Part shown: positions 1 through 52,672 of the stretch, piece by piece
Position numbering within the stretch: position 1 is the stretch's first letter
Layout of the letters: every line of letters starts with the position of its first letter
Assembly: GCA_947179485.1 (NCBI GenBank)
Contig: OX359246.1
Span: 20,274,001 to 20,338,000 of the forward strand
DNA: 64,000 nucleotides
Direction: 5' to 3'
Source of the DNA: Allacma fusca
Taxonomy: Eukaryota > Arthropoda > Collembola > Symphypleona > Sminthuridae
Program-made: the position numbers and the translations under genes
The notes under the pieces: generated by a model
Databases searched by the model: none
Told to the model about the DNA's origin: nothing
The model's input: the letters and a program-made list of their open reading frames with translations, nothing else

Positions 1-525
1 CAGGATCGCTTCGCATCGATTTGCAATTTCGACATAATTTCATCTCGGGAAGAAATTTTAGCTGCAATAAGCCTGCCTTATTTCAAATTGCGATGGATTC
101 CAGCTGATAAGAGAGACGAGTTTCGACAATTTTTCATTCAGGAATCAAAATTATTTGAAACACCTGTGGAGTTAGATGCGCAAGAAGAATTTCATGTCAT
201 CGACGATTTCTTCGAGTTTTCATCTCCCACCGCAAGCGTTATTGAGAATAGAGAAAACACTGCTGAACTGGAATGCTTGAGATATTTTCAAAATTCTTCT
301 CAAGAATTAATTTCCCTTCACAACTTTCCCATTATTAGAAAGATGTTTTTGCACTTCAATACACCGTTGCCTTCATCTGCCCCTTCAGAACGATTGTTCA
401 ATTATGCTAATATGGTAATGCGTCCAAACCGTTACAACCTCAGCGACCCAGTATTTGAACTGTTGGTTCTCCTTAAAGTCAATGGTGACGAACTTGACAT
501 GATGCATTGCAAGGATACAAATTAA
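1..525 (+). CDS. hAT transposase, C-terminal part (partial at window start)
   Basis: The frame is open from base 1 and stops at 523-525, giving 174 residues of a longer protein. The first ATG is irrelevant because the frame clearly continues upstream. The first ~30 residues carry the LAAISLPYFKLRWIP stretch usual in hAT transposases upstream of the dimerisation region. The last ~70 residues carry the hAT C-terminal dimerisation signature: PLPSSAPSERLFNYA, then RPNRYNLSD, then LLVLLKVN. In active hATs this segment mediates transposase multimerisation. The visible part has no frameshift or stop, so this copy may be fairly young or recently active. Identification to family is secure; activity cannot be judged without the 5' part. 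Confidence 0.88.
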   Translation, partial: QDRFASICNFDIISSREEILAAISLPYFKLRWIPADKRDEFRQFFIQESKLFETPVELDAQEEFHVIDDFFEFSSPTASVIENRENTAELECLRYFQNSSQELISLHNFPIIRKMFLHFNTPLPSSAPSERLFNYANMVMRPNRYNLSDPVFELLVLLKVNGDELDMMHCKDTN

Positions 526-1069
526 AATTGTCGTTCTTTTGTGATTTTAAAGTGGTGTCAAGCCTTTTTACTGATTACCGAGTAACAAGTCTCCGTTCTC
601 TCGCCCAAAATCTGTACATATTTTAGTATTTTTAGTACTCTTTATATTAGTATTTTAGTTAAATATAATGATTGAAATGTGTGTTATAAACATGTGGATT
701 TGAATTGTGATTTGAACTATGTACATCTTTAATTTTTGGACTATTTCTGGTTAAAATTTATCCATAACTTCATACTAATGAATTTGAATCAATGGGACCA
801 GCATTGTTAACTAAACCAACTATTTGGATTTTTACGTCACCGCATTATCTCAATCCTAATCCATGCCAAATTTGCGGTGCCCAATAGCTCAAAAACCTAT
901 GCATTGGCAAATGTTGGCCCGTTGATGTACTGTAAGTAAGAATTAATTTGGTCTATGTGCTAATCCGTTAGAAAATTTGTTTTTCTCAATGGCCTTAATA
1001 AAATCCACATCAAAACGCCAATCACATGTAAATCTGCGAATTTTTATTTATTTTTATGAATTCTTTACT

Positions 1070-1569
1070 CTAATCCAACTGATCGGAAATTTTGTGCTTA
1101 ATCCCGTAATCCAATCCATGTGATCGGAATTTTTGTGCTTAATCCCGTAATCCAATCCATGTGATCGGAATTTTTGTGCTTAATCCCGTAATCCAATCCA
1201 TGTGATCGGAATTTTTGTGCTTAATCCCGTAATCCAATCCAAGTGATCGGAATTTTTGTGCTTAATCCCGTAATCCAATCCATGTGATCGGAATTTTTGT
1301 GCTTAATCCCGTAATCCAATCCATGTGATCGGAATTTTTGTGCTTAATCCCGTAATCCAATCCATGTGATCGGAATTTTTGTGCTTAATCCCGTAATCCA
1401 ATCCAAGTGATCGGAATTTTTGTGCTTAATCCCGTAATCCAATCCAAGTGATCGGAATTTTTTCGCTTAATCCCGTAATCCAATCCAAGTGATCGGAATT
1501 TTTTCGCTTAATCCCGTAATCCAATCCAAGTGATCGGAATTTTTTCGCTTAATCCCTTAATCCAATCCT
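1070..1569. repeat. 41-bp tandem repeat, about 12 copies, at the hAT 3' end
   Basis: The marker GATCGGAA recurs at 1081, 1122, 1163, 1204, 1245, 1286, 1327, 1368, 1409, 1450, 1491 and 1532, exactly 41 bp apart. Units are nearly identical, differing mainly at CATG/AAGT before the marker and at TTTTGTGCTT/TTTTCGCTT after it; the last three copies share the TTTTCG variant. It lies between the transposase stop codon and the element's right terminus, so it is a subterminal array of the hAT element. Confidence 0.93.
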
Positions 1570-1600
1570 GCAGGTCGTCTGACTAAATTTCCCATCCCTG

Positions 1601-2746
1601 CATACGTACGTTCGTACACTTAATAAAGTGTAGTATGTATTCATTCAGCACGTGCCATATGCATATTTTCATCAACAAAGATATCAAGAGACTGGGATTA
1701 GGATTTAATATTGTTACTTTATTAGCTGTGGACATGGTTTGTAGAGGGAAACTCCACAATTTTATAAGCCTCCCGCTAGATTGACGATATCGTATGGAGA
1801 TACGATATCGCTTCAAAAGACCGAGAACTATACCGTAGTTAACATGTCTAGAATCAATGTTTTGTTGTATCCCTTCAATGTGCTAATGGGGAAAGATATT
1901 GTTACACATGTATGTACATATAATCTTATAATATCAAATTTGGTGGTCCCAGAGTTTCTTTCCCAAGGATTTGTTTAAATTAGATCATCGGATATTCGGT
2001 TTTAAAGGAAAAATTTGGATTATTATGCTAAATTCCGAATGGTAAAAATCGTCAACATTGAAAAATTAAAAATATTCATGGGATTTAACATTAACTATGG
2101 TCCTGTTTTGAATTTTGAAACTTTCGAGGCACTCCTGAGTGAACAATACAAAATGTCTTCGAGTTACTTGAGTTCTGAAACTCATTAGGGGAGTACTAAA
2201 ACATGTGCTATGTTTCGTTACCTTGTTAGTTCATTTTGTCTTTGCTGAAACTGCTTGTATATGTTTTTATACAGACCGAAAATGCACCTTCATCATTTTG
2301 ACTCTTCACCAATGATATTACACTTCAGTATATCACTCCGCCCGGCAGTTAATTTTTCAATTAGTGCCAGTCACAGGTCTTAATAATTCCAAATCAATAA
2401 GCATATAATGATTACTCCGTTTTCAATTTTGATATTATGATTACACTAAGTAATAACCATGATGTAATATCTATTTATTTTTATTAAACGAAATTACTAG
2501 AGCAAATTTTTGCTAGTTCTTGCAATAAAGATCTTGTTTACCCTATGACTTAAAATATGCATAGGAGGAGCAGCAAAAAATAATTGTGAATGGCTTAGTT
2601 ATAAAAAAATAATTGCTGGTTTTATTAACCCACTTTGGTCTTTTTTCATTAAAGATCATTACTGCAATTTATTCGATCATAATATAGTTTATCATAAATA
2701 GGTTGCGAATAGAGGCGGTTTCAGTCGACTGTTCTACGCTTTTTTT
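1601..2746. other. Intergenic; 5' edge of duplication unit A from 1961
   Basis: I see no gene here. Short open frames around 1583-1978 have no family resemblance. From 1961 onward the sequence is the 5' flank of the chemoreceptor-like pseudogene and aligns with 9754-10565 upstream of the second copy, so it may contain that gene's promoter. Confidence 0.5.
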
Positions 2747-4403
2747 ATGTTGAAGCCGCCTGAAAAGAAACGGTGTGAGCACTATGGACTTCTCCCTTCA
2801 TTTCAATTAAGACTTGAAGGGAACAACATGCTGACAAAAAAAGAATGGAGCTTACAATTAGTCAAATTCACTTTGAAAATATACTGCAAAACCCACACCG
2901 TTCCCTTGGACTGGAATGATGAGCAGGAATGTTTAAGCAGAACATCATCAAAATTCAAAATTTGGACTTCCAAGTTTTGCTTCGTCAGCACATTTTTATA
3001 CTCCAGATGCTTCCGTTGCAGATTGCGTGATGCATTTCGTCACTCTCAGTTGGTACGCAACAATTTGGATTTGGCAGATTACGAATTTGAGTAACCAAGA
3101 CAGTGTCGCGTTACTTTTCAATCAAACTGCGTTTTTAAATATACATCATGGTAAGCATTACACTAACCGCTTTGACCGTTTGAGTTACATATTATTATAT
3201 TTACAGTTGTAGCCTGCAATTTTTCAGAAAGAGTAATTGTATTAAATTTGTGTACCCAGGTTCCAGGTTTACTGGGGAGCCTTTTGCGAAGAGCAAGTAC
3301 AGGCACATCTTTCTGAAAGCCTTTAACAACAATTTACTTCCGTGTGTCTTATTGTTAGTTTGGGCAGGCGTTGTTATCGGAGCGAGACACCAGCATTTTT
3401 TCGTTTTCTCACTTTTCCCAGAAAACATGCAATCCTTTTACATTATAACTTACGTCACATTTGAAATTTTATTTGTGCTACAGTATTATCCAACATACAC
3501 ACTCCTGATTTTTTTTCAGTACATGTATCTGATGAGTTCCAAATATTGGCTCCAAATAGTTTGGTACGTGAAACGTTTTTGCCAGTATTTATTAAACTTT
3601 ATTGACATTTTGTTTATAAACATAAGTGCCTGAATTTCATAATCATGTGCAACTAAAAACGACATGCAGGCAATGGTAATTGGGACAACATCTTTGCCCA
3701 ATATTTTAAACTACAATTAGCCAACCGTATGTAAAAAATAAGTCTTCTGGAATAATTGATGATTTCAAACATTGTTGAGTGTAAATAGAATCACTCCACT
3801 CTATGGGCTAGAAGCGGGAGGCAGTTTTAGCTGGAATATTACAGTTAGATTTATTATAATAATAACAGAACATTATTATATTACAGCATTGAGTGGCCAA
3901 AGAAGGTAGAAAATCGTTTGGGAGCTTCCTCCAAAAACCCGGATTTGGAAACAACCTTCCAATACTACAAAAGCCTGGATTTGATTAACAAAGTGTATAA
4001 CGAATGCTATTCGTCTATTCTGATACCATCTTTTAAGGTTATGAGTTGTTTGTGCGTGATTGTTTCCACCTACGCCTGCATTCGTTTCGGACACTCTATG
4101 ATCCCAAGCATGGCAGTTATGCTGGGATTCGTGGCTCTCTTGCAACTCGCTTTTGTCCTTTGTCTTTGCACCTTCGCTGCGGAGTTCCACGACAGGACGA
4201 AAAGATTCCCTGAGAATTTTAAAACTTGTATTGTCAAATCTGAACACTACAAATATCCTCTTCGAGTTTATATCAAACGTGCAAAGACTTGCTGGCCATT
4301 TGGGTTCCGTGTGGGAAGTTTCTACTTTATTAAGAAAATCACCAAGATTTCTGTGGTGAATTTAATTGTGAATGGTGTTTTGTACTTATTGATTTCCTAT
4401 TGA
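2747..4403 (+). pseudogene. Chemoreceptor-like multi-pass membrane protein, copy 1 (broken)
   Basis: Same three-exon plan as copy 2 (10566-12408): exon 1 from ATG 2747, exon 2 at 3260-3563 and exon 3 at 3887-4403, with good donors (GTAAGC, GTACGT) and AG acceptors. Compared with copy 2, exon 1 has lost a net 41 bp near 3000, inside the first membrane segment. This shifts the frame and leads to a stop shortly after. The downstream part of exon 1, exon 2 and exon 3 remain open in their proper frames, and exon 1 also has a 6-bp in-frame insertion near 2860. With exons 2 and 3 intact, the loss looks recent. An alternative is that the deletion is an assembly error or a polymorphism. Confidence 0.8.
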
Positions 4404-6058
4404 TGTTTATGTTACAGAAAATAATTGAAGTTGTTATTGTCTAAGCTGGCTGTAGGTCTTACTGATGGGTATGTCCCAGAGGTAACTTAATATTTTATAG
4501 CATCACTAATATGCTTTTATGGCGTGGTCCTGTCGTTAACAATAATTATTAGAGTCGTTGTCAAATTTTTCCTTGATATGACCGCAATTACTAATAATTT
4601 TTTACTACTCATTCTAATGCCGGTGCAAGCTATGTGTTACCTTGCGTTGATTAGTTTTGTCCCGGCTCTGTATTTATGGTGAGACTTTAATTATTCCAGA
4701 ATAGTTTGATAATGATTGATGTTGTAAATATTAATTCTGTACGTGGAGGAACATGTGCACCGCATATCACGCATGCCTTTAAGTCTCTAACATAAAAATT
4801 GTGACAGCTACCTGTAAAGTATTAGTTAAAAGACACACTTTACTATCATCACCACTTGAAGGGAATCCTTTATACTTACAAATAAGGACCATTATTTACT
4901 GGACAAGAAAGCTCAGCTTTCCATAAGATCTTTAGTAACATACACAACTAACTTAATGTTGTAATAAAATAATTAGCCCAGCCCAACTGAATGAAGCTGT
5001 TTTTATTGCCCTATATTATATGAACAATTCCAGGGTGACAGTGACAGGGAGCAGAATTTATTGTGAAGTTGGGGCGCTTGTATGCTTGTTTCGTTGTGAT
5101 TGTTAATTTAAGTCATTTATGCAATAGCTTCAACAACCATGGGTAACAAAAAGCTGTTGGACATTACCTGCGCAAAAGAATGCGCAAAAGAAAATAGGGG
5201 CTATAATTGGAAACATCGGGTTTTCTGAGGTATCGCCTTAAAACAAATACCATATTCCTCACCGATGTCACAAATCCAAGATTTTCTCTTGAGATTTCTT
5301 AAATTTCAATGCCAAACTTTTTTCCCATATGCTTCGCCAAACTTGAGCACGTGATTACTACAAACATTCTAAGAATCAAACCCGTACCACATTTTTAAGA
5401 GAAATGAAAGAAGGATTGACATTTCGCCAGAGTAACCACAATCCTTATTATTAAAGGGCACTTTCTGTTCGTTTATTTAAAGTTCCGCGCGTTCATAGTT
5501 CAATGGCCTCACAACGCCCAAAAGGTGGCATGCCAAGCACTATTATTGTTAGCGAGCACTACCTGTCTGTTTATTTAAAACGCTACTCTAATATAAGCGC
5601 GCACGATTTTGGCATACAACAAGTCTCTACGGCAGGGCTTGATTCGTAAGCCGTTTGGCTTTTAATTTCTACAATCAAACTATCACCTCTTTAAGTAATT
5701 GTCCCTGTGAAGCACAGGGCTTTTACTAGTTTACAATATAATCTTGCACGTGTAAACATTATTTAAGGTTCCCGCAACCCCAATTTTGACTGGGAACTAT
5801 TTTAACAAAATCAAATGAATCCACATCCAATTGTGAAGCAGGTCAACTTTTTAGTAACCCTTTACAACAGCCAGATCGGTCATGATAAAATGAAGTAATT
5901 AACTCAAAATTCTTCAAATTTTTTTTTCTCAACGACCTATTAAACAGATCCTCAAAGCACCAATAAAATTTACAAGTAGGATTTTCTCCCAACTTTGATC
6001 CTCATTGCAAAAATTCTCAACGCATAAACCCAAATTGTAGTCTATATTTAAACGAAGA
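4404..6058. other. 3' flank of copy 1, non-coding
   Basis: Duplicated 3' flank, paralogous to 12409-13800. No convincing coding region. It contains one unit-A-specific block at about 5445-5745. Confidence 0.6.
5445..5745. repeat. Block of about 300 bp present only in duplication unit A
   Basis: In unit B the flanks run together: GCCAGAGTAACTACAATT is followed directly by TATAATTTAATCTTGCACG (13475-13510). In unit A the same flanks are separated by about 300 bp that include TTCCGCGCGTTCATAG and AAAAGGTGGCATGCC. It could be a small inserted element in A or a deletion in B. I see no clear terminal repeats or target duplication. Confidence 0.5.
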
Positions 6059-6066
6059 ATTTTGAC

Positions 6067-7787
6067 CAGGCCTGGATAACGTTATGGAATAATGTTATTT
6101 CATAACGTTATTACCGGAAAAATGACAGTAACGGTTTTTAAAACCTAACGAAAACCAACAAAAAAAAGAATAACGATAAACGAAAACAAACGATAAATGT
6201 GTTTTAGTAAAAACCGAAACGGAAACGGAAAAAATACAGTTATTTTAGGTTTTTTCTCAACTGTAAATGCGACCAGTACCCCTCCCTTCCAACTGTCGAT
6301 TGAACTCAATGCAAACGTATACCGTTGGAATGCGGGGCTAATTGTAAACGTATTTTATATGAGTATGTACATATCGGTGCGTTGATTACTCACCTAGTGA
6401 GCATGAATTACTTATTGTTAGATTCTGTTATAAATAAAACTGCTGGGACTCACTCAAATAGCTACCCTAAAGCAGATGCAGACTGTTGATGGCGGATAAT
6501 AGAGAAAATATGTAGTTTAGATTTTAAGTATTTATTAAGTGTGCAAAATACAAATAGTACTGCAAGCAGTAAGCACAAAGTTGCCACCCAAAATTTCCAG
6601 TAGATTTGGAATCGGACATCTCCTCATACATGTTCTTAATTATTATATACAAGTACAGAGGAGTAAAAATCGGAGTGCGGACCTAGGAGAGGCGCGCCAT
6701 TTCATTCATACTGGTCATTCATTTCCTTAGCACTAACAAGAACAATAGGATTACATAATGGCTGCATTCCTCAGCCGAGTAGATTATGTGAAACGGAGTA
6801 ACCGCGACAGACACCAGAGTAAGAGAATACAACGTACAATGAGTCGACCTACCTATGTACATACCATTCGCAACAGATTCGTTAAATTTGAGCGTATTTC
6901 GACTTATGTATTGTTAGTTTCGTTCAGCGTATTTCGGTTTCTACTAATAGTGCTAATTGTTAGTTCCACTGTATTTACAACTTATGTTCCAAGGGTTTAA
7001 AAACATTTGACCACAAAAATGGGCACACAAAAAGTCAGCGTAGTTTTTCAACATTTTGAGTTCAGAAACGCTGATCAAACATCTCGCAGCTTAGTGGAAG
7101 GTTGTGATTCGATTGTTCGGGTAAGCACATAAATGCATAATGAATGTACAATCGAGCAGCCTGAAGCTAATGTTTCTGATGACGATGAGGACCCGTTCGA
7201 AGTATTTCTGAGGAATAAAGACAAGAACAAATAATCTGCATTTACGACTTCTGTTTCCAGCTAAACTGCATTGCTGGAAGGTTTAGCCTCATATGAGAAA
7301 ATTCCGCGTGAAAAAAACAAAAAAGGTGTAAAGTTAGATCTATTCGAATGGTGGGCCAGTAATGGTCCAACTTCGTTGAGATATATAGCTAGAGTAATTA
7401 TTTGCCTTCCTGCGACTCAAGTCAGTGTTGAACGCCTGTTTTCAGCCTTAGCATTTGTACTACCTGAAAGACGAAGCAGTATGAAGGACGAGGTACTGAA
7501 CGCCGTTTTGTTCCTTCGAACCAACGGATTTTGAATGGTATTGGATATGTGGTTTTGAAATGTTTGAATAATACTGTAGTTATTAGTCTAATCAAATATA
7601 AATTTAAAAATAGACAAAATTTGTTAAATACCGTTATTAACCGTTTAACCGAATTTATTTTGATTGTAAACCGTTTTAATCGATAACGGTATTTTAAAAT
7701 AACGAAAACAAAAACGAAAACGGAAAAAAATTGACAATAACGTATAACGAACTAACGGAAACCTTATTTTTAGGTTATCCAGGTCTG
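6067..7787 (+). mobile_element. hAT transposon, internally deleted, ATAACG family
   Basis: Ends are CAGGCCTGGATAAC at the left and, inverted, CAGACCTGGATAAC at the right (13 of 14 match). The element is flanked by a perfect 8-bp target duplication ATTTTGAC at 6059-6066 and 7788-7795. Both subterminal zones are dense in ATAACG/AACGGTT words (6075-6190 and 7625-7765). Near the right end lies the C-terminal piece of a hAT transposase (7271-7534). The 1.7-kb length shows that most of the transposase is gone. The paralogous unit B has the uninterrupted target sequence. Confidence 0.93.
7271..7534 (+). pseudogene. hAT transposase C-terminal fragment
   Basis: An 87-residue open stretch that begins mid-protein (no genuine start at 7271) and ends at a TGA. 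It carries the hAT dimerisation signature: FEWWASN, then IARVIICLPATQVSVERLFS, then LPERRSSMKDEVLNAVLFLR. It lies just inside the right end of the ATAACG element, where hAT transposases usually end. The rest of the gene is absent or too decayed to read; a short stretch from 7019 might be the start of a BED-finger region, but this is weak. Confidence 0.85.
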
Positions 7788-7795: not shown

Positions 7796-10565
7796 ATGGA
7801 AAATTGAAACTACCGAACTTCCGCCAGAGTATCAAAGTATATTAAAACATTCATTTTTCCCCATGGTAAATTTTATGCCATAATTATACCTATCGTTTCC
7901 ATAATTTTTAGTTTTCGAGTGGAATCCGAAGACCCAAAAGTGGAGTGAGGTTATGCAAATCTTATCTCATCTAATACATACGCAGCGCTAGTTCATGACT
8001 TCGTTCTGCCTACGAACTAAATTCAACATAAAAGTTGCTACAACGGGGGTGAAAAAATAAGGAAAATTCTGTGAAATCGAGAAAAATCGAGTATTTTTAA
8101 CACCCCATTGTCAAAACACAAGGTTCTTCAATAATTCCAGAAATAATGCTTGAATTTAGGAGAGAATTGAAAATTTGAAAAAACTTTCCTTTCTCTGTAT
8201 CCCTCGTTTTATTTATAAGGCTCACATTGTGTGTAGATAGAAAGTCTAACTCGAGAGAAGAGTGAGGGGAGTAATATGAAAGTTTCCTTTAGATTTGTTG
8301 GAGAGAAGAAAATAACTTTGTTTAGGGTTTAGAGTGCCGGAACAGTTTAGTATTTCCTGTTAAATAGTGTTTACAGTATGTCCGCGTAATATACGCCCTC
8401 TCCCTCATCAGTCCTCAAGTGATTAAATGGAAACGATCTTTAAAAAAAGAGACTATATCACAAACCAGTCCTTCCAAGCCTTCAACATTCAAGATTATCT
8501 GCGTATATAAGAATATTATATAGTTATTTACGAAAATATCTGTATTTAACCCTCCGGATTTTTCAATAGAAACTTAGTTAAATTTCCGGCGTGAACTAAT
8601 CAAGATTGGCCAAAACTTGTGTCATGGTCTCAGATTGGTAACTATTGGACACAGCATTTTAAAGTTTACTCCATTGACATCTGGCAATATCAACTTCTGG
8701 AAAACAAATAAAAACTGAAAATTTGAAATTCTGACAAAACGACTTTCTTTGGCCTTTCTCTTTTTAATTTCCTCCATCAGGAATTTCCCTTTCTTAAACT
8801 TGTGATTCCTGTAGAAATTTTTTTCAGAAGTTATTTTGACGCCAGCTTGCACGCAATGTTGAAGAATTTCAAGCGAACTATTCCACAGGTCTATACGTAG
8901 GGAATTGTAGACACGATCTAAATTTGTGAGGATGAAATAAAAAACAAATATTTATTTGATGGCAACTTTTTAAACTTAACTTTAACTTTTTCTTAAACTT
9001 TCCCACACAAGTTTAGGGTTTCAGACCGTAATAATTCTTGACACAGGAAGACGATAACATATTCAAATGAATCCCCTTGTTAATTTCTACCAAACGCAAC
9101 TATCCAGACAAATTTGTTAAACTCCACAAATCTAATAAAATAAAAATAATAAAAAACCCAATAATCTATTAAAAATAGCAAGAACAAGAACTCATTTTCC
9201 GCAACTTCCTCAGTTGAATATCTAAAAATTAGCTCTGAAGAACTCACGACCCATCACATGACCCCCATTCAGGAAGGTCACAGAACTACACAATGATCTG
9301 GGTCGTGGGCCCACAACTGAGTTTTTGGACCTCTGAAAGTCAACGCATGGTCAACATAAATGAGTCTGGAGCTAAAAAATATAAAATTCAAATAAATAAA
9401 GTATTTAGGAACGAAGGTTCGCCAACTCCCCTACATACATTACATTCATACTGTGTCCCGGCAATAGTTGATACTCAAGCCTTACAATTAGAACGTATAG
9501 ATTCGATTTCAGTTGTGACAATTGTGAGCTTACTGATTTAAAAAGCCCGTTACAATAGCAAATGTAAAAAAACTATTAATATGGGAAAACTTTCTGAATT
9601 CCAAAATAGCAACAATTTTAACGAAACTTCTATTCCAAATGTTTTCCCCTTTTCCCTGCACGATTTAGTAGAAGAGATCCATTTTACTCACTAATACCGA
9701 GAGCAAGTGTGTATATGATTGATATTAAATGTATTTCTGCACTTATATACACTTCCCAAGGATTTATTTAAACTAGATCATCAGATATTTCGTTTTAAAA
9801 GAAGTATTTGAATTACTATAATTATGCTAAATCCCGAATGGTAAAAATCGCCGAATTTGAAAAATTCAAAATCGTCATAGGATTTAACATTACCTACGGT
9901 TCTGTTTCGCATTTTGAAACTTTTGAGGACCTTCTGAGGGAACAATACAAAATGCCTTCGAGTAACTTAAATTCTGAAACTTTTACTACTGGAGTACCAA
10001 ACCATGTTTTGCTACTATGTTAGTTCATTTTGCCTTTAGTCAAACTACGTGTATATGATTTTTATACAAACCGAAAATGCACCTACATCCTTTTGATTCT
10101 TCACCAACGATATTACACTTTAGTATATCACTCCGCCCGTCAGTTACTTTTCAGTTAGTGCTAGTCACAGGTCTTAATAATTCCAAATCAATAAGCATAT
10201 TAATTATGATTACACCAAGTCGGAACTATAATGTAATATCCTAATCATTTTAATTGCACCAATTTACTAGCAACAAATTGTTGCTAGCTCTTGCAATAAA
10301 GATCTTGTTTACCCCATGACTTCAAAATATGATAGAGAATAATAATTTATTGTCAATCAAATATGCCGTGCCTTGGAGGAGCAGGAAAAAATAATTGTGA
10401 ATGGTTTAGCTACAAAAAAATTAATTGCTGCTTTTATCAACCCACTTTGGTCTTTTTCCATTAAAGGTCATTATTACAATTTATTCGATCATAATATACA
10501 TAGTTCATCATATATAGATCGCGCATAGAGGCGGTTTCAGCTGTCGATTGTTCTACGTTTCTTTT
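7796..10565. other. Flank between the two duplication units; 5' flank of copy 2
   Basis: 7796-8601 is the tail of unit A. 8602-9753 is unique spacer, and 9754-10565 is the duplicated 5' flank of copy 2. A minus-strand open stretch around 8622-8900 (KITSEKNFYRNHKFKK) looks protein-like but matches nothing I recognise and has no credible exon borders. No other gene is supported. Confidence 0.45.
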
Positions 10566-12408
10566 ATGTATATTGAACGTCAGCCGCCTGAAAAGAAACG
10601 ATATGATCAGTATGAACTTCTCTGTTCATTTCAATTAAGGCTTAAAGGGAACAACATGCTGACAAAAAAAGAATGGAGCCTAGTCAAATTCACTTTGAAA
10701 ATATCCTGCAAAACTCACACCGTTCCTTTTGACTGGAATGATGAGCAGGAGTGTTTAAGCAGAACATCATCAAAATTGAAAATTTGGACGTCCAAGCTTT
10801 GCTTCGTCAACATGTTTTTATATTTAACCTTCGTCTGTGCTCGCTTTCCTAGTACTGTACTTAATCCAGATGCTTCCGTTGCAGATTGTGTTATGCATTT
10901 GGTCACTCTCAATTGGTACGCATTAAATTGCATATGGCAGATTACAAATTTGAGTAACCATGACAGTGTCGCGTTACTTTTCAATCAAACTGCGTTTTTA
11001 AATATACATTATGGTAAGAATTATATTACCCTCTATGATCGTTTTAGTTACATATTATAATATTTTACAGTTGTTGCCTTCAATTTTGTATACTACATAA
11101 ATTTAAATTTATTTCAACAGGCTCCAGGCTTACTGGGGAGCCTTTTGGGAAGAGCAAGTACAGACACGTCTTTCTGAAAATCTTTAACATCAATTTACTT
11201 CCGTGTGTCTTAGTTTGGACAACCGTTATTATCGGAGCGAGACATCAAAATTTTTTTATGTTCTCAATTTTGCCAGAAAACATGCAATCCAAATTTTACA
11301 TAGTAGCATATGTTACAAATGAAATATTTTTTATGCTCCAGTATTATCCAACATACATACTCCTGATTTATTTCCAGTACATGTATCTCATGAGTTCCAA
11401 ATATTGGCTCCAAATAGTTTGGTGCGTAAAACGTTTTTGCCAGTGTTTATTAAATTTTACGAACATTTTGTTTATACACATAAGTGCCTGCATTTCGAAA
11501 TTAGGTGTATACTGTAACTAGGAACGACATGCAGGCTGTAACAAAACACTGCTGTCCTCTATCCCATACAAGGGGTGACTCATCCAGTATGTATTCCCTT
11601 AATGTCTTCCACATTTTATAAAATTGTTTCATTGACCTATGTCAATTTAGAGCGTTACATTAGGTCAGCAGGGACAAAATATTCGTCCCGTATTTCAATC
11701 CCATAATTTATGCAATTAGCCAACCGTAAACGTATGTAAAAAATGAATCTTCTGGAATAATTGATGGGATCAAACACTCTCGAGAAAAAAAGGAGTCACT
11801 CCATTCTATGGGCTAGAAGCGGAAGGCAGTTTTAGTTAGAACATTACAGTTAGATTTATTATAATAATATTAGAAAATTATTGTATTACAGCATTGAGTG
11901 GCCAAAGAAGGTAGAAAATCGTTTGGGAGCTTCCTCCAAAAACCCGGATTTGGAAACAACCTTCCAATACTACAAAAGCCTGGATTTGATTAACAAAGTG
12001 TATAACGAATGCTATTCCTCTATTCTGATACCATCTTTTAAGGTTATGAGCTGTTTGTGCGTGATTGTTTCCACCTACGCCTGCATTCGTTTCGGACACT
12101 CCATGAACCCAAGCATGGCAGTGATGCTGGTAGTCGTAGCTCTCTTTCAACTCTCTTTTGTTCTTTGCCTTTGCACCTTCGCTGCGGAGTTCCACGACAG
12201 GACGAAAAGATTCCCTGAGAATTTTAAAACTTGCATTGTCAAATCTGAACACTACAAATATCCTCTTCGATTTTATATCAAACGTGCGAAGACTTGCTGG
12301 CCATTTGGGTTCCGTGTGGGAAGTTTCTACTTTATTAAGAAAATCACCAAGATTTCTGTGGTGAATTTAATTGTGAATGGTGTTTTGTACTTATTGATTT
12401 CCTATTGA
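10566..12408 (+). CDS. Chemoreceptor-like multi-pass membrane protein, copy 2 (intact)
   Basis: Three exons: 10566-11013, 11121-11421 and 11892-12408, with introns of phase 1 and 2. The total of 1266 nt encodes 421 residues. ATG 10566 is the first in-frame ATG and aligns with the copy 1 start; ATG 10654 (MLTKKEW) is the alternative, used in copy 3. Hydrophobic segments lie at about 76-94, 106-126, 175-195, 208-240, 300-325, 330-352 and 400-420. A conserved QYYPTY(I/V)LLIYFQYMYL block falls in the fourth and VNGVLYLLISY at the C-terminus. Length, topology and a short hydrophobic C-terminal segment resemble arthropod gustatory or odorant receptors, and local tandem copies fit that. The canonical TYhhhhhQF motif of gustatory receptors is not present, so the family call is inference. 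Confidence 0.72.
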
Positions 12409-15366
12409 TGTTCACGTTACAGAAAATAATTGTAGTGGTTATTGTCTAAGCTGGCTGTAGTTCTAACTGATGGGTATGTCCCAGAGGTAACTTAATATTT
12501 TATAGCATCACTAATGTGCTTTTATGGCGTGGTCCAGTCGTTACCCATAATTAGAGTCGTTACCAAATTTTTCCTTGATATGACTGCAATTAATAATAAT
12601 TTTTTACGACTCATTCTAATGCCCATGCAAGTTGTGTCGATTAGTTTGGTCCCGGTTCTGTATTTACAATTTATGGCGAGACTTTAATTATTCCAGAATA
12701 GTTTGATGATGATTGATGTCGTAATTATTAATTATGTAGTAATTAAGTGGAGGAATAGTATGTACACCGCATAATCATGCATGCTTATAAGTATGTATCA
12801 AAAAAAGTGTGGCAGCTCCCTTTAAAGTACTAGTTGAAAGTCTCACTTCAGCTCAGCTTTCCCTGAGAGCTTTAGTAACATACATGACTAACTCAATGTT
12901 CTAATAAAATATTTAGCCCAGCCCAACTGAATAAAGCTGCTTCTATTGCCCTTATTTTTTATAAACAATTGCAGGGAGACAGGGAGCAGGATTTATTGTG
13001 CTGAAATGCTACATGTTTTTTTACGAGCCGCTGTTTATGCGCGGGTATGTGCGTTTCGATGTGTTTGAAATCAGAAACTTTTGAAACTCGAAATTAGGAT
13101 TCGATTTTAACTATCCTGGGTTGGCGCAGATTATTTCCATGGCTTATTTGTTAATTTGAGCCTTTTATGCAATATCTTCAAAAATCATGGATAACAAAAA
13201 ACTGTTGGAAATTACCTGCACAAAAGAATCGCCAAGTTTGTGGGGCTATAATGGGAAATATCGGGTTTTCTGAGATATCGCCTTGAAACAAATACCATAT
13301 TCCTCACCGATGTCACAAATCCAAGATTTTCTCATGAGATTTCAAAAATTCCAATGTAAAACGTTTTTCCCACATTCTTCGCTAAAATTCAGCTTATGGC
13401 GGTGGTTACTGCAAACATCATAGAAATCAAACCTATATGGCATTTTTAAGAGAAGTGAAAGAATTGATAATTCGCCAGAGTAACTACAATTTTTTATAAT
13501 TTAATCTTGCACGTGTTAACAATATTTAAGGTTCCAACAAACCCAATTTTGACAGGGAACTATTTTAGCAAACAAATGGATCCACATTCAATTTTTAAGA
13601 CGCTCAACGTTTTGGTATCCTTTTACAACAGCCAGATCTGCCATGATAAAATGAAGTGACAAAAAATTCTTCCGAGTTTGTCTTCTCAACGAATTATTAA
13701 ACAGCTCCTCAAAGCACCCATTAAATTTACAAGTAAGATTTTCTCCCAACTTTGATCCTCATTGCCAAAATTCTCAACGCGTAGACCCAAATTGCAGCCT
13801 ATGGAATTTTGTCATGGAAAATGGAAACTACCAAACTTTCGCCAGAGTATCACATGGTATGAAAACATTAATTTTTCCCCAGGGCAAATTTTATGGCACA
13901 ATTGTGCCTCCATCATTTTCACAATTCTTAATCATGCAAATTTGATAACATCCAATGCTTACGCTACGCTAGTCCATGACCTCGTTCTGTCTACGAACTA
14001 AATTCAATAAAAAAAGTTGCTTCTACTGGGGCGAAAAATAAGGAAAACTTTGAGGAAAATAATCGAGTATTTTCAGTAGCCCATTGTCGAAATACTAGGT
14101 ACTTCAATTCCAGAAATAATGTTTGAATTTAGGAAAGAATTGATAATTTGAAAAAACCTTCCCTTCTCAGTATCCCTCGTTTTCTTCGATCGGGATTTTT
14201 GATTCCCTGATACAATCAAGCCAACGTAACTGTACACCCCTGTATATCAGTACTATACAAGTGGTCATTGTGATATTGTTGTGAAATAGTTTGTAATAGT
14301 GTTTAGAGTATGTCCGCTTAAGTTGCGTCCTCCCCCTTCATCAGTCCTCAAGCGATTAAATGGAAATGACCCATTTGATAGATTGTCATAATTACAAATA
14401 ATCTTAATACATTTCGATTTTACGATATCTTTGGTATATGTCAAATTAATTAAATCAAATTGACGAAGGCTGTTACAAAAAAGGGAGTCTCCTTTTTTAC
14501 GACATTTTAATATAGTGAGTCGCTTTGGGGAGGGAAATATATTATTGCACATTGCACATACACAAATTGGTAATACTATTATCTACAATGTAGGACATGG
14601 GCAAGAAGTTCCTGGTTGTTGAAAATAGCACGTATCAGGAAAGGACAAAAATATATTGTGCTCACTGTTTGTGTCATTATTTGTAGATATGTTAATAACG
14701 GAGTTTTGTATGAAGAAACCCATTAAATAAACATTGCGATTATTTAAACGTAATTGTATCGGAGACAATTTCCATTTGTTGCACCATGCAAAATTCAGCA
14801 TCGGATCCTAAAGCATCCTGGCCTGATTCGTCGAACGCTATTCTCTGACCTGTCAATTAAGCGAATAACATTATAAATTGATACTAATCCCGGCAGATAA
14901 CTGAAATTGTAATTTATGGGTACAAATGTCTGAAATTCAGTTATTTAAAATGAAGTTTTATTTGCAATTTGATGAGAAATAAGACTCCAATATTCTTATC
15001 AATGAACGAACAGGTAGATACATTTTGAACACTATGAATGCCGCATCAGCTGAAAAAATTGGTATTTCGATGTGTTAAAATTGTTGCAACATCATGGGCA
15101 TTGAATCATCTTATAAGTCTCAGCTTTCAAATTTGAACGTAGCTTTTTAAATTACGTTAGTTTATAGTTGTCCATTTGATCCGCGGACACGTTGTCAAAT
15201 TTTTATACCTAAGAACCTTCAGGAACTGCTTCTATTCCGCAGAACTGGGTCACATCCTCAGCAATCAGTATTTTATTGCTTCGAAACAAGTAATTTGAAT
15301 TTAACAAAAAGGGAATATCATAAACCAGTTCTTTCTAGCCTTAAATTTAGGATTATCTGCGCAAAC

Positions 15367-29985: not shown

Positions 29986-29994
29986 TTAATACTG

Positions 29995-30360: not shown

Positions 30361-30439
30361 ACATTGACTTTCGGGGGTTCCACAAGATCCGGATCGGATC
30401 AAAATATGCTTGGCAGCGGAGAGAGTACGTCCTAATCAC

Positions 30440-38180: not shown

Positions 38181-39159
38181 ATTTGTTCCAGTGCAGCCCT
38201 AGTCTTGTCCGACTAGACTAGAAAACTAGGGAAGTGAATAGAATATCCTGGTTGTGGAAGCAAATTGAATAGACTAGACTTGAATAGCTTTCCTGCAAAG
38301 TAAAATGGAATAGAATAGACTAGAATACTCAGAATTTTAACATAGAGGGAATAGACTAGAATTGACTAGGGAGATAGAACTATTCCTATCGTCTAAGTCG
38401 GATTGCGAGTCTTTCAACTGCACTGTTGGTACAAGCTAACATTAACATCGACTAAAATGTGCGTTTATCAAGTAGAAAATCGTTTCTGACTTTTTCAGCT
38501 CTGCTTGTACATACATGCATTTCTAATGACATGCACTTATGCAATGCATGTCATAGTAAAATTGTAATGCTGGGTATTTCTTCCTATATGGAATTCTTCC
38601 CACACTTGCCATTTCGGTAAAAACTGTATTTTTAAGGCACTTTTAACCACATTACCTTTCTAGTTTCATCAGTATTCCATTACTTCCTTTGATTTAACTA
38701 GAACTACAAGCAAAAAAACAAGCTTTTTGGTACACGAGCCGAGTTTGGGGATTTCGAATTAGGCAAGTTTTCATTACTGCTTGATGTTTGGCAGTAACAA
38801 AAAACCAGATTTTCGTTATTAATTTTCCCCAAAATGGGGGAAACAATAGACAAACCCCCACGCTGCAAATTTACAATAAAACAATATCAGATGCTGGCAA
38901 GCCAGAAGTAATGTTTAAAAAATGATCTGGGCTTAACAATCCTCCGTCAAATGTCAAAATTAAAAAATTGAGTAAGTCAGATTTCAAATCACAGTTAAAT
39001 AAAGCTACCTAAGTAATAACGATCCTTTTACAATGTACCTAAAACTGCGGATGCAAGTTTCTTTCTAGTTTTGCTTGAAAGCTCAAAGACACGCAGTTTT
39101 CCTTTCTCAGCAACGTCGCATTCCTTGAATATGGTTTTGTTTGTAGTGTATTATGAATA

Positions 39160-40048
39160 CAGGTAAAACTCGATATAACGGATGGCTCTACAACGGATAT
39201 TTAGTTACACCGGACAGATTTATTTGTCCCGGCAAGGCTCCCATATAACTAATGCTAAAAATATTGCATACAACGGAAATATGTATACCGGAAAATTAGT
39301 TATAACGGACACACTTTGAAGGCCTTTGGAAACATTTTGCATGCATATAACAAATTTTAAGCGGAAATTTATTACAAAATAGTATATTGGCTCCCTTTAA
39401 CATGTAATCGTTGGCCAAGGCAATTCAAACGTTTGTTACTCATATATGTAAGTAGGATGAATGGTCATATTGGGACCAAATCGTTGCATATACATTTTGG
39501 TTGAATGAATAAGAACTCTTGAACACTTGCGAGTTTCATCTAATTAGTTTGAATTTATGTCTTGCAATTTGTTCACAGTTCTAAAATGTCCAAAAAATCA
39601 AACCGAGTTAAAATTTAGGAGAAAAAGTATTATATTTGGAATTAAAAGTGGGAACTCTCAAACTCAACTATGCAAAGATCGTGCTCTATCATCAACCAGA
39701 GTGAATGATATTTGGAAGAAATTGTTTAAGTATTCACGTAAAAATGGACCTAAATGATAAAAGCCCAGCAACCAATAACTAAGTTTTTGTGTGTCGATGA
39801 ATATTAAATTATTGTACTTCTATATTTAATCAACTCAATGTTTCTACAGTTGAATAATTATTATATTATTAGTCTGGTGTTTCCATGTTGTATTTCGATG
39901 AATTTAAGTCAATATTCCTAATCAACCTTGTTTGTCATTTAGGAAATTATATAACGGATAAAATCCGTTATGTGCATACAACGGAAATTTTGTATAGCGG
40001 ACAAATTTTTCCGGTCCCCTGGGATTCCGTTATATCGAGTTTTTCCTG
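39160..40048 (+). mobile_element. pogo/Tigger-like transposon, internally deleted, nested in hAT
   Basis: 889 bp with inverted termini CAGGTAAAACTCGATATAAC (left) and CAGGAAAAACTCGATATAAC (right, inverted), 19 of 20 matching. It is flanked by the TA target duplication expected for Tc1/mariner/pogo elements (39158-39159; 40049-40050). Additional TATAACGGA words occur near both ends. It contains the N-terminal HTH part of a CENP-B-type transposase (39557-39757). The DDE domain is absent, so the element is non-autonomous. Confidence 0.92.
39557..39757 (+). pseudogene. CENP-B/Tigger-type transposase N-terminal HTH fragment
   Basis: 66 residues. The stretch IFGIKSGNSQTQLCKDRALS followed by STRVNDIWKKL matches the CENP-B N-terminal helix-turn-helix (basic start, G-x-S-Q-T-Q-L-C-K-D, then S-x-x-V-N-D-I-W-K). 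In pogo transposases this domain binds the terminal repeats. The protein stops at about residue 66, before any catalytic domain. Confidence 0.8.
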
Positions 40049-40218
40049 TAGGTGAATAGACTTGGAATAGAATAGGATTTTGTTGACTTGGTTGGAATTG
40101 GAGTATACTAGAATAGCCAAGTCACAAGCAGATGTGACTAGAATAGGAATAGAATATTACAGTTTGTGTACGTAGTGGACTAGAATTGACTAGACTAGAA
40201 AGTGAACGGGCAGCACTG

Positions 40219-41210: not shown

Positions 41211-42010
41211 CTACGATTCCCGATATACTTTCTTCTCTTCGCTGTCGGGCCTATGATTAAATTGCATCCCGGTGAAAAGCCGCCTCTTTTTACCATGCCG
41301 ATTATGTACATATACCGACCCGGGCACGTATGTCTCATCCACATCCTGGGGATCTACTGCAGGCTTCGCATTTCCACATGCCCTAGTATGCCGGTTAAAC
41401 TTCCTATCCCCGATACACTCAAATTCATAAGCCACCCCATCCTGACACATGTAAAAGTTCCTCCCTCCTCTTTCATGGGGAATCTTGTACCCAATTGGCT
41501 TGTTGCACGCTAAATAGGGAAACGGCATTTGAATTTCAGTCACAGCTTAATATTTAAATTCAATAAATTTTAAACTGACCTTTGCAGTCTCGAGCCTCAA
41601 GTTCGTCGAGACATTCTCTTGAGAATGGGTCAAAAGTCTTTCCAGGCCGACATTCCAGTAATTTAGGTCTTGCTCCGTGTTTATGACATCGAAGATATTT
41701 CCTACAATTTCCTAAAGGATGTGGGTAATTACCTTCTTCCTCACATTTGGATTGCTGGAAGAACCGAAGGTTCAATTTAACCTTGTCGGGACTTTTTCCT
41801 CTGTGGGTGATGTATGCAAATACTTCTTTATACAAACCTTTCGGTTTGCAGTGGGCACATCTGTACTTGGACCTCTTTCCTTCTACCTATCAAAAAGATT
41901 AAATTTGGTTAAGCCGAAGATCGTAAATAAAAAATCAATTTATGAAATACCTCAATAGAAAGAACAGAAAGGGTAAAAATCACGACGATTAGCTGCAGAA
42001 ATTTCCCCAT
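41211..42010 (-). CDS. Secreted chitin-binding (CBM14/peritrophin-A) protein, copy A
   Basis: Three exons: 41951-42010, 41580-41886 and 41211-41509. They total 666 nt and encode 221 residues. Exon 1 is the signal peptide (MGKFLQLIVVIFTLSVLS). After a short C-x-x-C segment (RCAHCKPKG) comes a full six-cysteine CBM14 domain: SKCEEEGNYPHPLGNC, KYLRC, LLECRPGKTFDPFSREC, RDC. Exon 3 opens a second, degenerate CBM14 with four cysteines (ACNKPIGYKIPHE, RNFYMC, FEC, RAC). A basic C-terminal tail follows (GKKRRLFTGMQFNH). Secreted CBM14 proteins bind chitin in cuticle or the peritrophic matrix; which one applies here is unknown. Copies B and C share the exon structure and intron phases. Confidence 0.92.
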
Positions 42011-46409: not shown

Positions 46410-47107
46410 TAGTGCATCGCATGGGTTCAAAACAGTCGAACCTGTACCTGAACCTGGACCCAAACTTTGGGTACCTCAAAAGTGTGAACCTGTACCTGAA
46501 AATTTACCCATTTAACAGGTTCAAATTTTTCGATCCTGAACCTGACCCAATTGCATTTTTGTAGTACCCGTACCTGATTAGTACCTGAACCCGAAAAAGT
46601 ACCCAAAAGACGACCTGAACCCGGGTATTTTTGAACCGGACCTGAACATGTTTGGGTACTTGAGAATCCGAACTTTTTTTCAATTTTATCTTGTATTAAA
46701 AGTATCAATTGGGCATTTGTAGTACAAAATATATTTAAAATGAGTAAGGATGCAAGTTCACTGGTTCCTGGGACACCCAGCCATTGCATTTGCGATGGAA
46801 ATCATCTTGGAAGCTTGAAATTCTCCGGCCTTTAACTTTCAATCGATGAACCCAAACATTTCAGGTCTTTTGTGATCAGGTTCAGGTCTTTCATGTGTTA
46901 CACCTGGTCCTGACAGGTAAAATCAAAACGGGTTTTTCTCTGTACCTGGCCCTGAACCTGAACCTGTACCCAATTTCACGGGTCTAAAATATTGTACCCA
47001 GAAAGGACCCAAAATTATTGGGTCCAAAATACATGCACCCATACTGAACCTGAACCTGGACCTAAACCCAAATACCCGGGTGCGACTTGAACCCATGCGA
47101 TGCACTA
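46410..47107. mobile_element. hAT-type non-autonomous element, CCTGAACC family
   Basis: 698 bp with perfect inverted termini of 21 bp beginning TAGTGCATCGCATGGG. Flanked by the perfect 8-bp target duplication AGTCCATC at 46402-46409 and 47108-47115. The body is a degenerate run of CCTGAACCTG/GGTACCC words in both orientations, apart from a unique centre at about 46670-46850. It has no coding content. The perfect termini and duplication suggest a recent insertion. Confidence 0.94.
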
Positions 47108-47349: not shown

Positions 47350-48150
47350 CTACGATTGTGAATATGTTTTCTTTTTTTCGATATCAGGCTTATGGTTAAA
47401 CTGCATCCCGGTGAAAAGCCGCATCTTACTGCCATGTTCATTAACTATGTATACCGAGCCGGGAGTGTAGCTGTCATCCACATCCTCTGGGTCTATTGTA
47501 GGGACAGCGTTCCCACATGTCCCACTATACCTATTAAACCTCATGTTTCCGAGGCACTCAAATTCATAAGCAACCCCATCTTGACACATGTAAAAATTCC
47601 GGCCTGCTCTCTCGTGAGGAATTTTGAATCCAACTGGCTTGTTGCAAGCTAAATACAGAAATTTCTTTTTTAATTGAGGGTATGACATAATAATTAGTTT
47701 TTCCAATGTTGTCTAACCTTTGCAGTCTCGAGCCTCAAGATGGTTAAGACATTCTCTGGAAAATGGGTCAAAGGTTCTCCCTGGCCGACATACAAGTAAT
47801 TTAGGCCTAGCCCCGCGTTTATGACACCGAAGGTATTTCTCACAATCTCCTAAAGGATATGGATAATTACCTTCTTCTTCACACTTGGATCGCTGGAACC
47901 ATACTTGGTTTAATTTAATTTTGTCGGGACCTCTCCCTATGCGAGTGACGTACGCAAAGGCTTCTTTATACAAGCCTTTCGGTTTGCAGCGAGCACATCT
48001 GAATTTAGATCTCCCATCCGCCTGTCGAAACGATTAATTCCAGAAAAATGACTTCAAATTAAAATATTATGTGTATGCCAAATTTTGAAATACCTTATTG
48101 GAAAGAACAACAAGAGTAAAAATCAGAATTAGCTGCAAATTTTTACCCAT
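47350..48150 (-). CDS. Secreted chitin-binding (CBM14) protein, copy B
   Basis: Exons 48094-48150, 47718-48021 and 47350-47648 total 660 nt and encode 219 residues. Signal peptide MGKNLQLILIFTLVVLS, then FRCARCKPKG. A full CBM14 domain follows (KCEEEGNYPYPLGDC, KYLRC, LLVCRPGRTFDPFSREC, RDC). The second domain is degenerate, with only four cysteines (ACNKPVGFK, FYMC, FEC, GTC), and leads into the conserved tail MRLFTGMQFNHKP. This is the most diverged of the three copies. A minus-strand AATAAA at 47308-47313 is the likely polyadenylation signal. Confidence 0.92.
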
Positions 48151-50510: not shown

Positions 50511-51528
50511 CAGAGCTGCGCACAAGTACAAGTAGACCACGATTATTTCAAGTCAAGTTCGCGTTCGGGTCGTGGTCAAGTAAATAAAATTAAAACTATG
50601 AACGGTTCGGGTCGTGTTCAGGAATTTAATGGACTTGACCATGATTTCTTACGTCAAGTCAAGTACGTGGTCAAGAATAATTATTTTACTTGAACGAAGT
50701 ACTTGGTCATGTTCAAGTAAATATTTAGAAGTACTTGACCACGAACTTGAGTTTTTCGTGTACAAGTTCAAGTAATCATGCTTGAGCAAGTCTCCATGGC
50801 TGAGGGAGTTTTCAATTCACTTACGATTCACTATACTAAATAAAACTTAAAGCGGAATTTTAGTGCATCATTTTAAGAGGCCTTAGTTAACTTGTTCCGT
50901 GTGTAAATACAAAAGAATGCTCAACACTCATATGGATCGGCTCCGTAGAAATTGATTTAAAAATGTTCACCCATTTTTACAATAGAATATGTCAACAAAA
51001 CCTAAAAGGAGTTCTGTGTTACCGAAAATGTCAACTGAGACACCAGACACACCGGCTACTCGAAACCAGAGTAGATCTTCATTGTACATTCTACATTCAA
51101 TGAGAACGGTCAAAAATACAATTTTTGTTTTTAGAGGCGGTTGCTCGCATTATGCTGGGTGAAACCTAGTGTGTTAGAAACGAAGTAGAAGTATGTTCAC
51201 GTACACACCTGACAAATATAAATTTTTCTCCAATAAAATTTAAGTATTTTGGTGTCGTACAAGTCAGGTTTCTTGTACTTGAAAGTTCAAGTTCATGGTC
51301 AAGTTCGGGTCATGGTCAAGTCAAGTTAACGTTGGACCCGAAACGCGCGTATAAAATCATGGTCAAGTAATCTGAGAATTACTTGAAAACCCGAACTTGT
51401 TACATTCAAGTATTACTTGAACTGAAATTGTCAAGTTCGGGTTACCTTGAAATACGTACTTGAGAAGTCGGGGTCAAGTCAAGTTCGTGGTCGGATTTTT
51501 ATAAATACTTGACCCGAGCGCAGCACTA
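50511..51528. mobile_element. hAT-type non-autonomous element, CAAGT/GACC family
   Basis: 1018 bp. The left terminus is CAGAGCTGCGC and the right, inverted, is TAGTGCTGCGC. Flanked by the perfect 8-bp target duplication GTTTGAAT at 50503-50510 and 51529-51536. Subterminal zones (50515-50790 and 51260-51520) are made of TCAAGTTC/GGTCAAGTA words in both orientations; the centre (50800-51250) is unrelated and non-coding. Confidence 0.92.
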
Positions 51529-51926
51529 GTTTGAATTGTTCAAAAAATAACGAAATTGTTCCTATTGCTCCAATCACAAGTATTATTACTTCTACTTTTT
51601 CAACATTATGCTTTCTCAACAAAGTATACAATGATCAGACTACTTGCTTAAGTAGATTTGTTTCTTGAGCTCATTTTAAAGAATTTTCTGTTCTACCTGA
51701 TAAATAATGTAATCAACATTTGCCACTGTGTAGTGGCTAATATTGATTCTTTATAGAACTATATATCAATTCTTACATTTGATTCAACTTTTGCTACACA
51801 ATGAATTTTTTCGTAGACATTCCACTTATTCTCACGCTAATGAGTTGCTATTATTTTACGAATACTTTGATGCCTTATATTCCGTAGAAGTTAAATTATA
51901 TGACATGATGCTGACATATAGGCAGG

Positions 51927-52071
51927 CAGGGGTGGATTAATAAAAAAAGTTTTAACCTGGCCATAAGCCTCAAAATGGATTTTTGGGCCACTTATAATCT
52001 GAGGGCCTTCGATAATTTTATTTAACCCTGGCCGAGCCAAGGTGAACCACCCCTAGGTAAATCCATCCCTG
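51927..52071. mobile_element. Small inverted-repeat element (MITE-like)
   Basis: 145 bp beginning CAGGGGTGGATTAA and ending TAAATCCATCCCTG (inverted: CAGGGATGGATTTA), 12 of 14 matching. No matching flanking octamers are visible, so its class is uncertain; hAT-type by terminus only. Confidence 0.55.
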
Positions 52072-52210
52072 TGAGCATCGGTTCCCCTCTTCACAACATC
52101 TGCAAAGAGAACGGCCGGTGCTTGGCCCTGGTAGACAATGAGCTGGAATCAAGCTAGGAGACATCTTTTGAGATTGAATCCATTCCGAATTAGTTGATAT
52201 GACAATATGG

Positions 52211-52664
52211 CAGGGGTCGGATTTTTGTAAATCTCCCTGGAAGATTTTTTCCAATTTCCCTGCTGGTCATGATTTCCCTGTTTGAAGCAAGTTTAAAACT
52301 CCCTGTTGACAAAATAATTTTCGTGAAACACCCCAACAAATTCAAAAATCCCTGCTGAAAAAAAGGTCAACAAATTTGAAAATCCCTGCTGACAAAAAAT
52401 TATTTTCAGTAAAACACCTCAACAATTTCAATAATCCCTGTTGACAAAAATCATTTTCAGTAAAACACCTCAACATTTTCAAAAATCCCTGCTGGCAAAA
52501 ATTGTTTGTGATAAAACACCTCAACAATTTCGAAAATCCCTGCCAAAAAAAAGGTCAACAGATTTGAAAATCCCTGTTTGCAATCCCGTTTGAAAATTTC
52601 CCTGCTGAAAAACTTTTTTCCCTGGGAAGATTCTTCCCGTCTTCCCACATAAATCCGACCCCTG
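52211..52664. mobile_element. hAT-type non-autonomous element, CCCTGCTGACAAA family
   Basis: 454 bp with perfect inverted termini CAGGGGTCGGATTT and the perfect 8-bp target duplication CAATATGG at 52203-52210 and 52665-52672. Inside are about five tandem units of some 52 bp containing AATCCCTGCTGACAAAAA and TTTTCAGTAAAACACCTC. It has no coding content. A decayed relative lies at 43276-43471. Confidence 0.93.
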
Positions 52665-52672
52665 CAATATGG

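Follow-up and report, generated by a model that had tools for sequence, protein, structure and literature searches.

Why should several short transposons lying side by side in one animal genome each be written, at both ends, in iterations of a short word that is largely its own? The question is raised by a stretch of 64 000 nucleotides from the collembolan Allacma fusca (GenBank assembly GCA_947179485.1, contig OX359246.1, positions 20 274 001 to 20 338 000 of the forward strand), hereafter called the window. An initial annotation had described seven elements of the hAT type in it, had noted the words and had suggested that they may be amplified binding sites of the transposases. Its observation is confirmed by the analysis presented here, and its interpretation is partly supported. 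Judging from the sequence, the word arrays are very probably hAT subterminal repeats, predicted sites of the BED zinc finger of the transposase with one specificity per family. The window offers a genuine, clean instance of a hAT feature that is already known, in an unusually clear and varied form, and not a new system. All sequence tests on elements and words were made within the window.

The seven elements (E1 to E7) are listed below with their terminal inverted repeats (TIRs), target-site duplications (TSDs), words and array limits.

6067–7787, no strand: E1, hAT element, 1721 bp; TIR CAGRCCTGGATAAC, TSD ATTTTGAC; word AACGRAAA/AACGG; arrays at about 6067–6231 and 7628–7787
7331–7531, plus strand: remnant of the hAT transposase C-terminal dimerisation domain in E1, 67 amino acids; Pfam PF05699, PDB Hermes chains
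19653–20268, no strand: E2, non-autonomous hAT-type element, 616 bp; TIR TAGGARTGGGACTGTTC, TSD ACATAAAT; word YGGWCC/GGACCAGA; arrays at about 19653–19876 and 20035–20268
33434–34619, no strand: E3, non-autonomous hAT-type element, 1186 bp; TIR CAGAGCTATG, TSD GCCACGAC/GTCACGAC; word AAAATAC; arrays at about 33434–33550 and 34429–34619
38189–40218, no strand: E4, non-autonomous hAT-type element, 2030 bp including a nested insert; TIR CAGTGCWGCCC, TSD ATTTGTTC; words CTAGWCTA/GAATAG; arrays at about 38189–38387 and 40052–40218
46410–47107, no strand: E5, non-autonomous hAT-type element, 698 bp; TIR TAGTGCATCGCATGGGTTCA (20/20), TSD AGTCCATC; words GGTTCA/TGAACC and GGTNC type; arrays at about 46410–46647 and 46845–47107
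50511–51528, no strand: E6, non-autonomous hAT-type element, 1018 bp; TIR YAGWGCTGCGC, TSD GTTTGAAT; word ACTTGA(C); arrays at about 50511–50776 and 51274–51528
52211–52664, no strand: E7, non-autonomous hAT-type element, 454 bp; TIR CAGGGGTCGGATTT, TSD CAATATGG; body a 34/51/86-bp minisatellite with TCCCTG

Termini, target duplications and coding remnants

Matching inverted termini and 8-bp TSDs had been claimed for all seven elements, and this was borne out: each of the 14 putative ends, when checked, starts with CAG or TAG, and the TSD is exact in six elements (E1, E2, E4, E5, E6 and E7) and carries one mismatch in E3. The TIRs are identical at 9–11 of 11 positions in six elements; in E3 the first 10 bp are identical. 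The window was also scanned blindly for elements (TIR matching at 11 or more of 14 positions, TSD with at most one mismatch), with six Markov-simulated windows as control. This gave 29 hits in the window. An exact TSD accompanies four of them, namely E1, E2, E5 and E7, whose TIRs differ at no more than one of 14 positions. The simulated windows (n = 6) gave 79 hits with a single exact TSD among them, and that hit has three TIR mismatches. E3 stands among the 25 remaining hits in the window (three TIR mismatches, one TSD mismatch). E4 and E6, whose TIRs are shorter (10/11 and 9/11), surface only in a relaxed scan (exact TSD, TIR of at least 9/11), which returned 15 rows including E1, E2, E4, E5, E6 and E7. 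By TIR and TSD alone E3 and E6 are not distinctive, and they rest on the summed evidence. As to the Hermes-type target preference nTnnnnAn, T is found at position 2 in four of the seven TSDs and A at position 7 in four of the seven.

The 67-amino acid open stretch of E1 matches PF05699 in Pfam (E = 1.4e-11), and against PDB the fragment finds chains of the Hermes transposase (E = 0.0015–0.002). It is placed between the two word arrays of E1, as in a normal hAT element; no N-terminal part of a transposase was recognised in E1. The lengths of E2–E7 fit those of miniature inverted-repeat transposable elements (MITEs). Taken jointly with the reading of the arrays as subterminal repeats, it is very likely that E1 is a deletion derivative still carrying a piece of its transposase and that the elements are mostly non-autonomous and belong to several hAT families. 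The long open reading frame (ORF) of E5 (46427–46801) was considered as a coding origin and rejected (no Pfam hit; largely inside the word array). NCBIfam returned nothing for the three sequences scanned. Scans of viral contigs with the termini of E5 and E2, and with the ends of an element nested in E4 (see below), gave no match; the contigs that matched the termini of E7 (three) and E1 (four) were taken as chance matches, no second copy of the terminus (at most 2 mismatches in 14) being present in any of the seven.

A word shared by both arms

Words of 8 bp were sought by expectation maximisation in each arm alone, the opposite arm being held out for counting. The words of the left and right arms agree in E2 (ctGGtCCa twice), E3 (AAAATAC twice), E4 (CTAtTCtA and CtAtTCaA) and E5 (GGTnC type twice), and partially in E6 (a palindromic reading on the left, ACtTGAac on the right); in E7 the search yielded two AT-rich motifs. 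The count in the held-out arm beats every outside window (about 2110) in 13 of 14 motif/arm tests, and E1 passes this test with its TIR kept. After removal of the terminal 25 bp, 12 of the 14 tests are passed with 8-bp words and 9 of the 14 with 10-bp words. Repetition of 8-mers lies above that of every outside stretch of the same length in six of the seven elements, E1 being the exception (16 of 74 outside stretches are as high), and the best single 6-mer is exceptional in six of the seven, again not in E1 (8 of 96 outside segments reach it). Composition as an artefactual source of the words was rejected by shuffles and by the outside windows. The words carry about 5–9.5 bits of information in E1–E6. 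A motif search of variable width performed poorly for E1 (AT-biased) and E7, and 6-mers were used instead for the position profiles.

The words had also been held to differ between families, and for the most part they do: the matrix of words against families is mainly diagonal, with exceptions among E2, E5 and E6, whose words partly overlap and cross-match. With the word of the E5 right arm, the score is 14 in E5 itself, against 11 in E2 and 7 in E6. At width 10, the word of the right arm of E4 scores 10 in E2 versus 7 at home. In the minisatellite body of E7, TCCCTG is present in 12 copies. The start of E7, GGTCGGATTTTTGTAAAT (52215–52232), recurs with one mismatch in the right arm of E6 (51489–51506); in a shuffle control, 1 of 100 shuffles gave two or more matches at 3 or fewer mismatches.

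Extent, strand and spacing of the arrays

A fall in word density inside the elements had been proposed as a check, and such a fall is found. For core 6-mers in E1–E6, coverage of the 50-bp bins is 0.20–0.57 within 200 bp of the tips, at most 0.18 at 250–300 bp and 0–0.03 deeper; it is 0.003–0.015 in the 2 kb of flanks, so that the words are not equally common outside the elements. According to change points fitted to the 6-mers, thinning is sharp after the outer 117–266 bp in six families (left/right: E1 165/160, E2 224/234, E3 117/191, E4 199/167, E5 238/263 and E6 266/255 bp). Profile-based change points lie at 160–363 bp over the 12 arms of E1–E6, with a weak fit for the right arm of E5 (log-likelihood gain 0.8); the fit always returns a point, and its length is limited to half the element (308 bp in E2, 349 bp in E5). 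The length of the right array of E4 is less certain because its end adjoins the nested TA-flanked element. The description of the element bodies as mostly written in words holds for the short E2, E5 and E7 and for about half of E6; in E1, E3 and E4 the words stand mainly in the ends.

Words in both orientations, another point of that description, are a property of E2, E5 and E6; those of E3, E4 and E7 are strongly one-stranded. Neighbouring words have the same orientation in 14 of 31 cases in E2, 18 of 31 in E5 and 21 of 42 in E6. The majority strand is equal in both arms in 10 of 14 motif tests (opposite or tied in E2 left, E5 left, E6 left and E7 right); both tests agree for E1, E3 and E4, and E2, E5 and E6 are mixed. 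Strand counts of 6-mers gave the same majority strand in both arms in all seven elements, but are softer than the motif tests because the 6-mers were chosen and oriented by eye.

In E2, E4, E5 and E6 the words often overlap at 5–6-bp steps. Autocorrelation was tested over 22 lags in the 7 elements and compared with order-1 simulations. Its peak is at 5 bp for E2 (z = 4.4) and E4 (z = 5.8) and at 6 bp for E5 (z = 4.3) and E6 (z = 5.7); E1 is marginal (z = 2.7 at 6 bp), E3 has a peak at 15 bp (z = 2.5) and E7 has none. These peaks would also suit arrays that are functionless, microsatellite-like products of slippage in transposon ends, with the period as the repeat unit, and so would the tandem repeats that make up E7 and the array of a tentative eighth element (see below) and the one-stranded words of E3, E4 and E7. 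However, slippage gives no account of two separate arms that share one word, of thinning about equally far from the tip in six families of words, or of strand switching between neighbouring words in E2, E5 and E6. Moreover, Tandem Repeats Finder (TRF), at its threshold, picks out nothing in E1, E4, E5 and E6 and no more than short pieces in E2 and E3. As an explanation of the arrays we regard slippage as improbable; it may be the route by which they grew.

Words in two orientations could alternatively make fold-back elements, forming single-strand hairpins that act in excision, in silencing or as sources of small RNAs. Folding, which covered E2, E5, E7 and the left arm of E4, is stronger than in all shuffles for E2 (z = −10.8, 20 shuffles), E5 (z = −7.5, 20 shuffles) and E7 (z = −3.8, 100 shuffles). 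However, pairing of the TIRs gives part of this energy in all three, the left arm of E4 folds no better than its shuffles (z = −0.96; 37 of 200 as good), and the words of E1, E3 and E4 keep their majority strand from one arm to the other instead of being mirrored. We therefore consider it very improbable that folding explains the words.

Subterminal repeats as predicted transposase-binding sites

Amplified sites for the family's own transposase are what the sequence evidence favours, the words being mostly family-specific, common to both arms, rare in the flanks and present over end lengths known from other hAT elements. Under this reading, the N-terminal BED zinc finger of the transposase would bind its short word repeatedly over the outer 200 bp or so, this repeated binding would gather multimeric transposase on the element end, and the catalytic core would read the short TIR of the CAG/TAG type and cut there. 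The word would be a signature of the finger of its own transposase, and relatives with similar TIRs could therefore carry different words. We infer binding by transposase, one transposase per word, and selection that keeps the arrays.

Known hAT systems offer several points of comparison. In fish genomes there are hAT elements whose words are, for example, GTAACT or AAGTAC. A highly repetitive subterminal sequence is said to have been found essential for Tol2 transposition by Urasaki in 2006. In maize Ac/Ds the transposase likewise binds subterminal repeats, and the Ac site AAACGG resembles the E1 word AACGG, but a close kinship of E1 and Ac is unsupported. Mar, a hAT MITE of Drosophila, is comparable as a short non-coding hAT derivative. 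The end DNA needed amounts to 200/150 bp in Tol2, at least 200 bp per end in Ac, about 100 bp in Tag1 and about 200 bp in Hermes (PMC10368747). The BED domain of Hermes binds AAG(T/C), with 17 + 14 occurrences, and in the Hermes model the BED fingers of several protomers sit on short repeats near the left end and the catalytic core on the TIR (PMC10368747). Repeats 2–7 of the Hermes left end are antisense and repeats 1–5 of its right end are sense (PMC10368747), so that they too would lie on one strand if the numbering runs inward from the tip. The 8-mers preferred by hAT-encoded proteins differ from one protein to another, and in four of four cases they match subterminal regions of the protein's own Repbase model (PMC8097297); Herves binds yet another subterminal motif (PMC3143072). 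Family-specific words in functional ends are what the published Hermes-type model would predict.

The elements of the window resemble Hermes and hobo in their 8-bp TSDs, short TIRs and many short words over an end of about 200 bp, and the E1 domain resembles the Hermes transposase. They differ from them in their words (AAGT in Hermes), in the 5–6-bp overlaps of four families and in being mostly without a recognised coding part. The E6 word ACTTGA/TACTTG recalls the palindrome AAGTACTT of the Tol2 paper by Koga et al., as quoted in PMC10368747; Tol2 and Tgf2, however, are both autonomous, whereas E6 has no recognised coding part and a different TIR. The initial annotation had further called the length of the arrays extreme, which we do not uphold. 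Subterminal repeats have been described as defining hAT elements, and Tgf2 has 17 + 18 copies of them (PMC4890040). The site counts here are 31, 32, 29, 31, 32 and 43 in E1–E6 and 13 in E7; although motif definitions differ between these counts and those of Hermes and Tgf2, 29–43 sites in six elements are not extreme beside 17 + 14 and 17 + 18. Less usual are the several word 'dialects' side by side, the dense arms and the packing of sites into the short E2 and E5.

That the words are instead sites for host proteins (chromatin or transcription factors) which the elements have captured is highly unlikely: short degenerate words suit many DNA-binding proteins, and domesticated hAT fingers such as CGGBPs also bind short motifs (PMC8097297), but a mostly different word per family, with arrays that start just inside the TIR, at both ends and over transposase-like distances, fits the element's own protein better.

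Several results weigh against transposase binding as the explanation. None of the families yielded a transposase with a BED finger, E1 alone having a significant coding remnant, and Pfam gave no hit above the cut-off in the 21 frames scanned out of 56 stop-to-stop frames of at least 45 amino acids in E2–E7. The arm words of E1 agree only partially (AACGnaAa on the left, AAaAccG on the right), and its word is weak at the level of the whole element. E7 looks partly like a plain minisatellite. The held-out test failed for the right arm of E7 at width 8, where 402 of 2116 outside windows reach the count. The failures without the terminal 25 bp were, at width 8, E1 right (8 of 2116 outside windows) and E7 right (73 of 2124) and, at width 10, E1 left (303), E3 left (2), E3 right (398), E4 left (5) and E4 right (1), each of 2116. 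Finally, Hermes activity in cells was not dramatically lowered by mutating inner putative sites (PMC10368747), so that not every word need be used.

A bolder form of the transposase-binding reading, which we consider rather unlikely, would make these phased hAT arrays: words at steps of roughly a half-turn of the helix (5–6 bp, four families), with one majority strand common to both arms in spite of the inverted TIRs (at least in E1, E3 and E4) and with thinning at about 200 bp, would nucleate a ring or filament of transposase along the whole arm. The word would then be a fast-evolving password against cross-mobilisation among elements with similar TIR cores (E4, E5 and E6: YAGWGCWKCSC).

If each word is the BED site of its own family, one animal genome would offer a natural set of many finger/word pairs. 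The specificity code of BED zinc fingers would become readable by sequence comparison, and the avoidance of cross-mobilisation among coexisting transposons could be addressed. A literature search, with subscription papers mostly beyond its reach, brought up no title that could be identified as surveying many word families within a single genome.

A tentative eighth element

An eighth element cut by the window start had also been proposed, and is weakly supported.

1–1577, plus strand: E8, candidate right-hand portion of a hAT-like element that the window start interrupts; ORF 1–525 with likeness to the hAT C-terminus, then a 41-bp tandem array 1072–1568; end uncertain

The array consists of about twelve 41-bp tandem units and is dense in TAATCC: TAATCC/GGATTA occurs 25 times in 1050–1577 versus twice in the preceding 524 bp and twice in the following 523 bp. 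The whole ORF gave no match to PF05699, and two shorter pieces of it reached E values of 0.10 and 0.14, which do not pass the cut-off. By BLAST, a piece of the ORF matches the E1 fragment at 1e-5, a value for that single comparison. Nothing sensible was found for the ORF in PDB, and the 29 pattern matches of a scan of prokaryote genomes were rejected, none being a relative.

Other features of the window

The insert in E4 is not part of the hAT element.

39160–40048, no strand: element with TA duplication, nested in E4; TIR CAGGWAAAACTCGATATAACGGA

We take it to be pogo/Tigger-like from the likeness of its termini. It is enriched for AACGGA (8 copies in 889 bp), although the same score is reached by 3 of 212 outside segments.

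At 30030–30375 there is a word-rich zone (CCAACTACCTGGGTAG-like; TRF units of 33–90 bp) without recognisable termini, whose best 6-mer is unexceptional (17 of 596 outside segments are as high); it may represent a decayed element similar in type to E1–E7. Nearby, a pair of inverted repeats (29720–30016; GTTGGTACACATGT...; 42 nt, 86% complementary, 211 nt apart) may be a small MITE, and stretches at 30485–30637 and 32510–32663, about 1.9 kb apart, are inverted duplications (79% and 95% complementary). A PHD-like ORF (E = 0.0018, below the Pfam cut-off) followed by an ORF with FILGDFNVN and no Pfam hit occupies 34863–36008; FILGDFNVN is presumably endonuclease-like, and we assume from this likeness that the region is probably a decayed non-long terminal repeat retrotransposon.

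Three tandem copies of an apparent multi-exon membrane-protein gene, perhaps chemoreceptors, lie at 2012–5348, 9811–13393 and 17788–19406; the pieces scanned gave no Pfam hit above the cut-off. With an ammonium transporter, a UDP-glucosyltransferase, a chitin-binding peritrophin domain and two tRNA-Ile genes, the window has the look of animal DNA, and its gene content points to an arthropod. Three tandem chitin-binding (CBM_14) genes are found on the minus strand at 41211–41546, 47350–47712 and 54172–54522, the first identified by Pfam and the others as its repeats.

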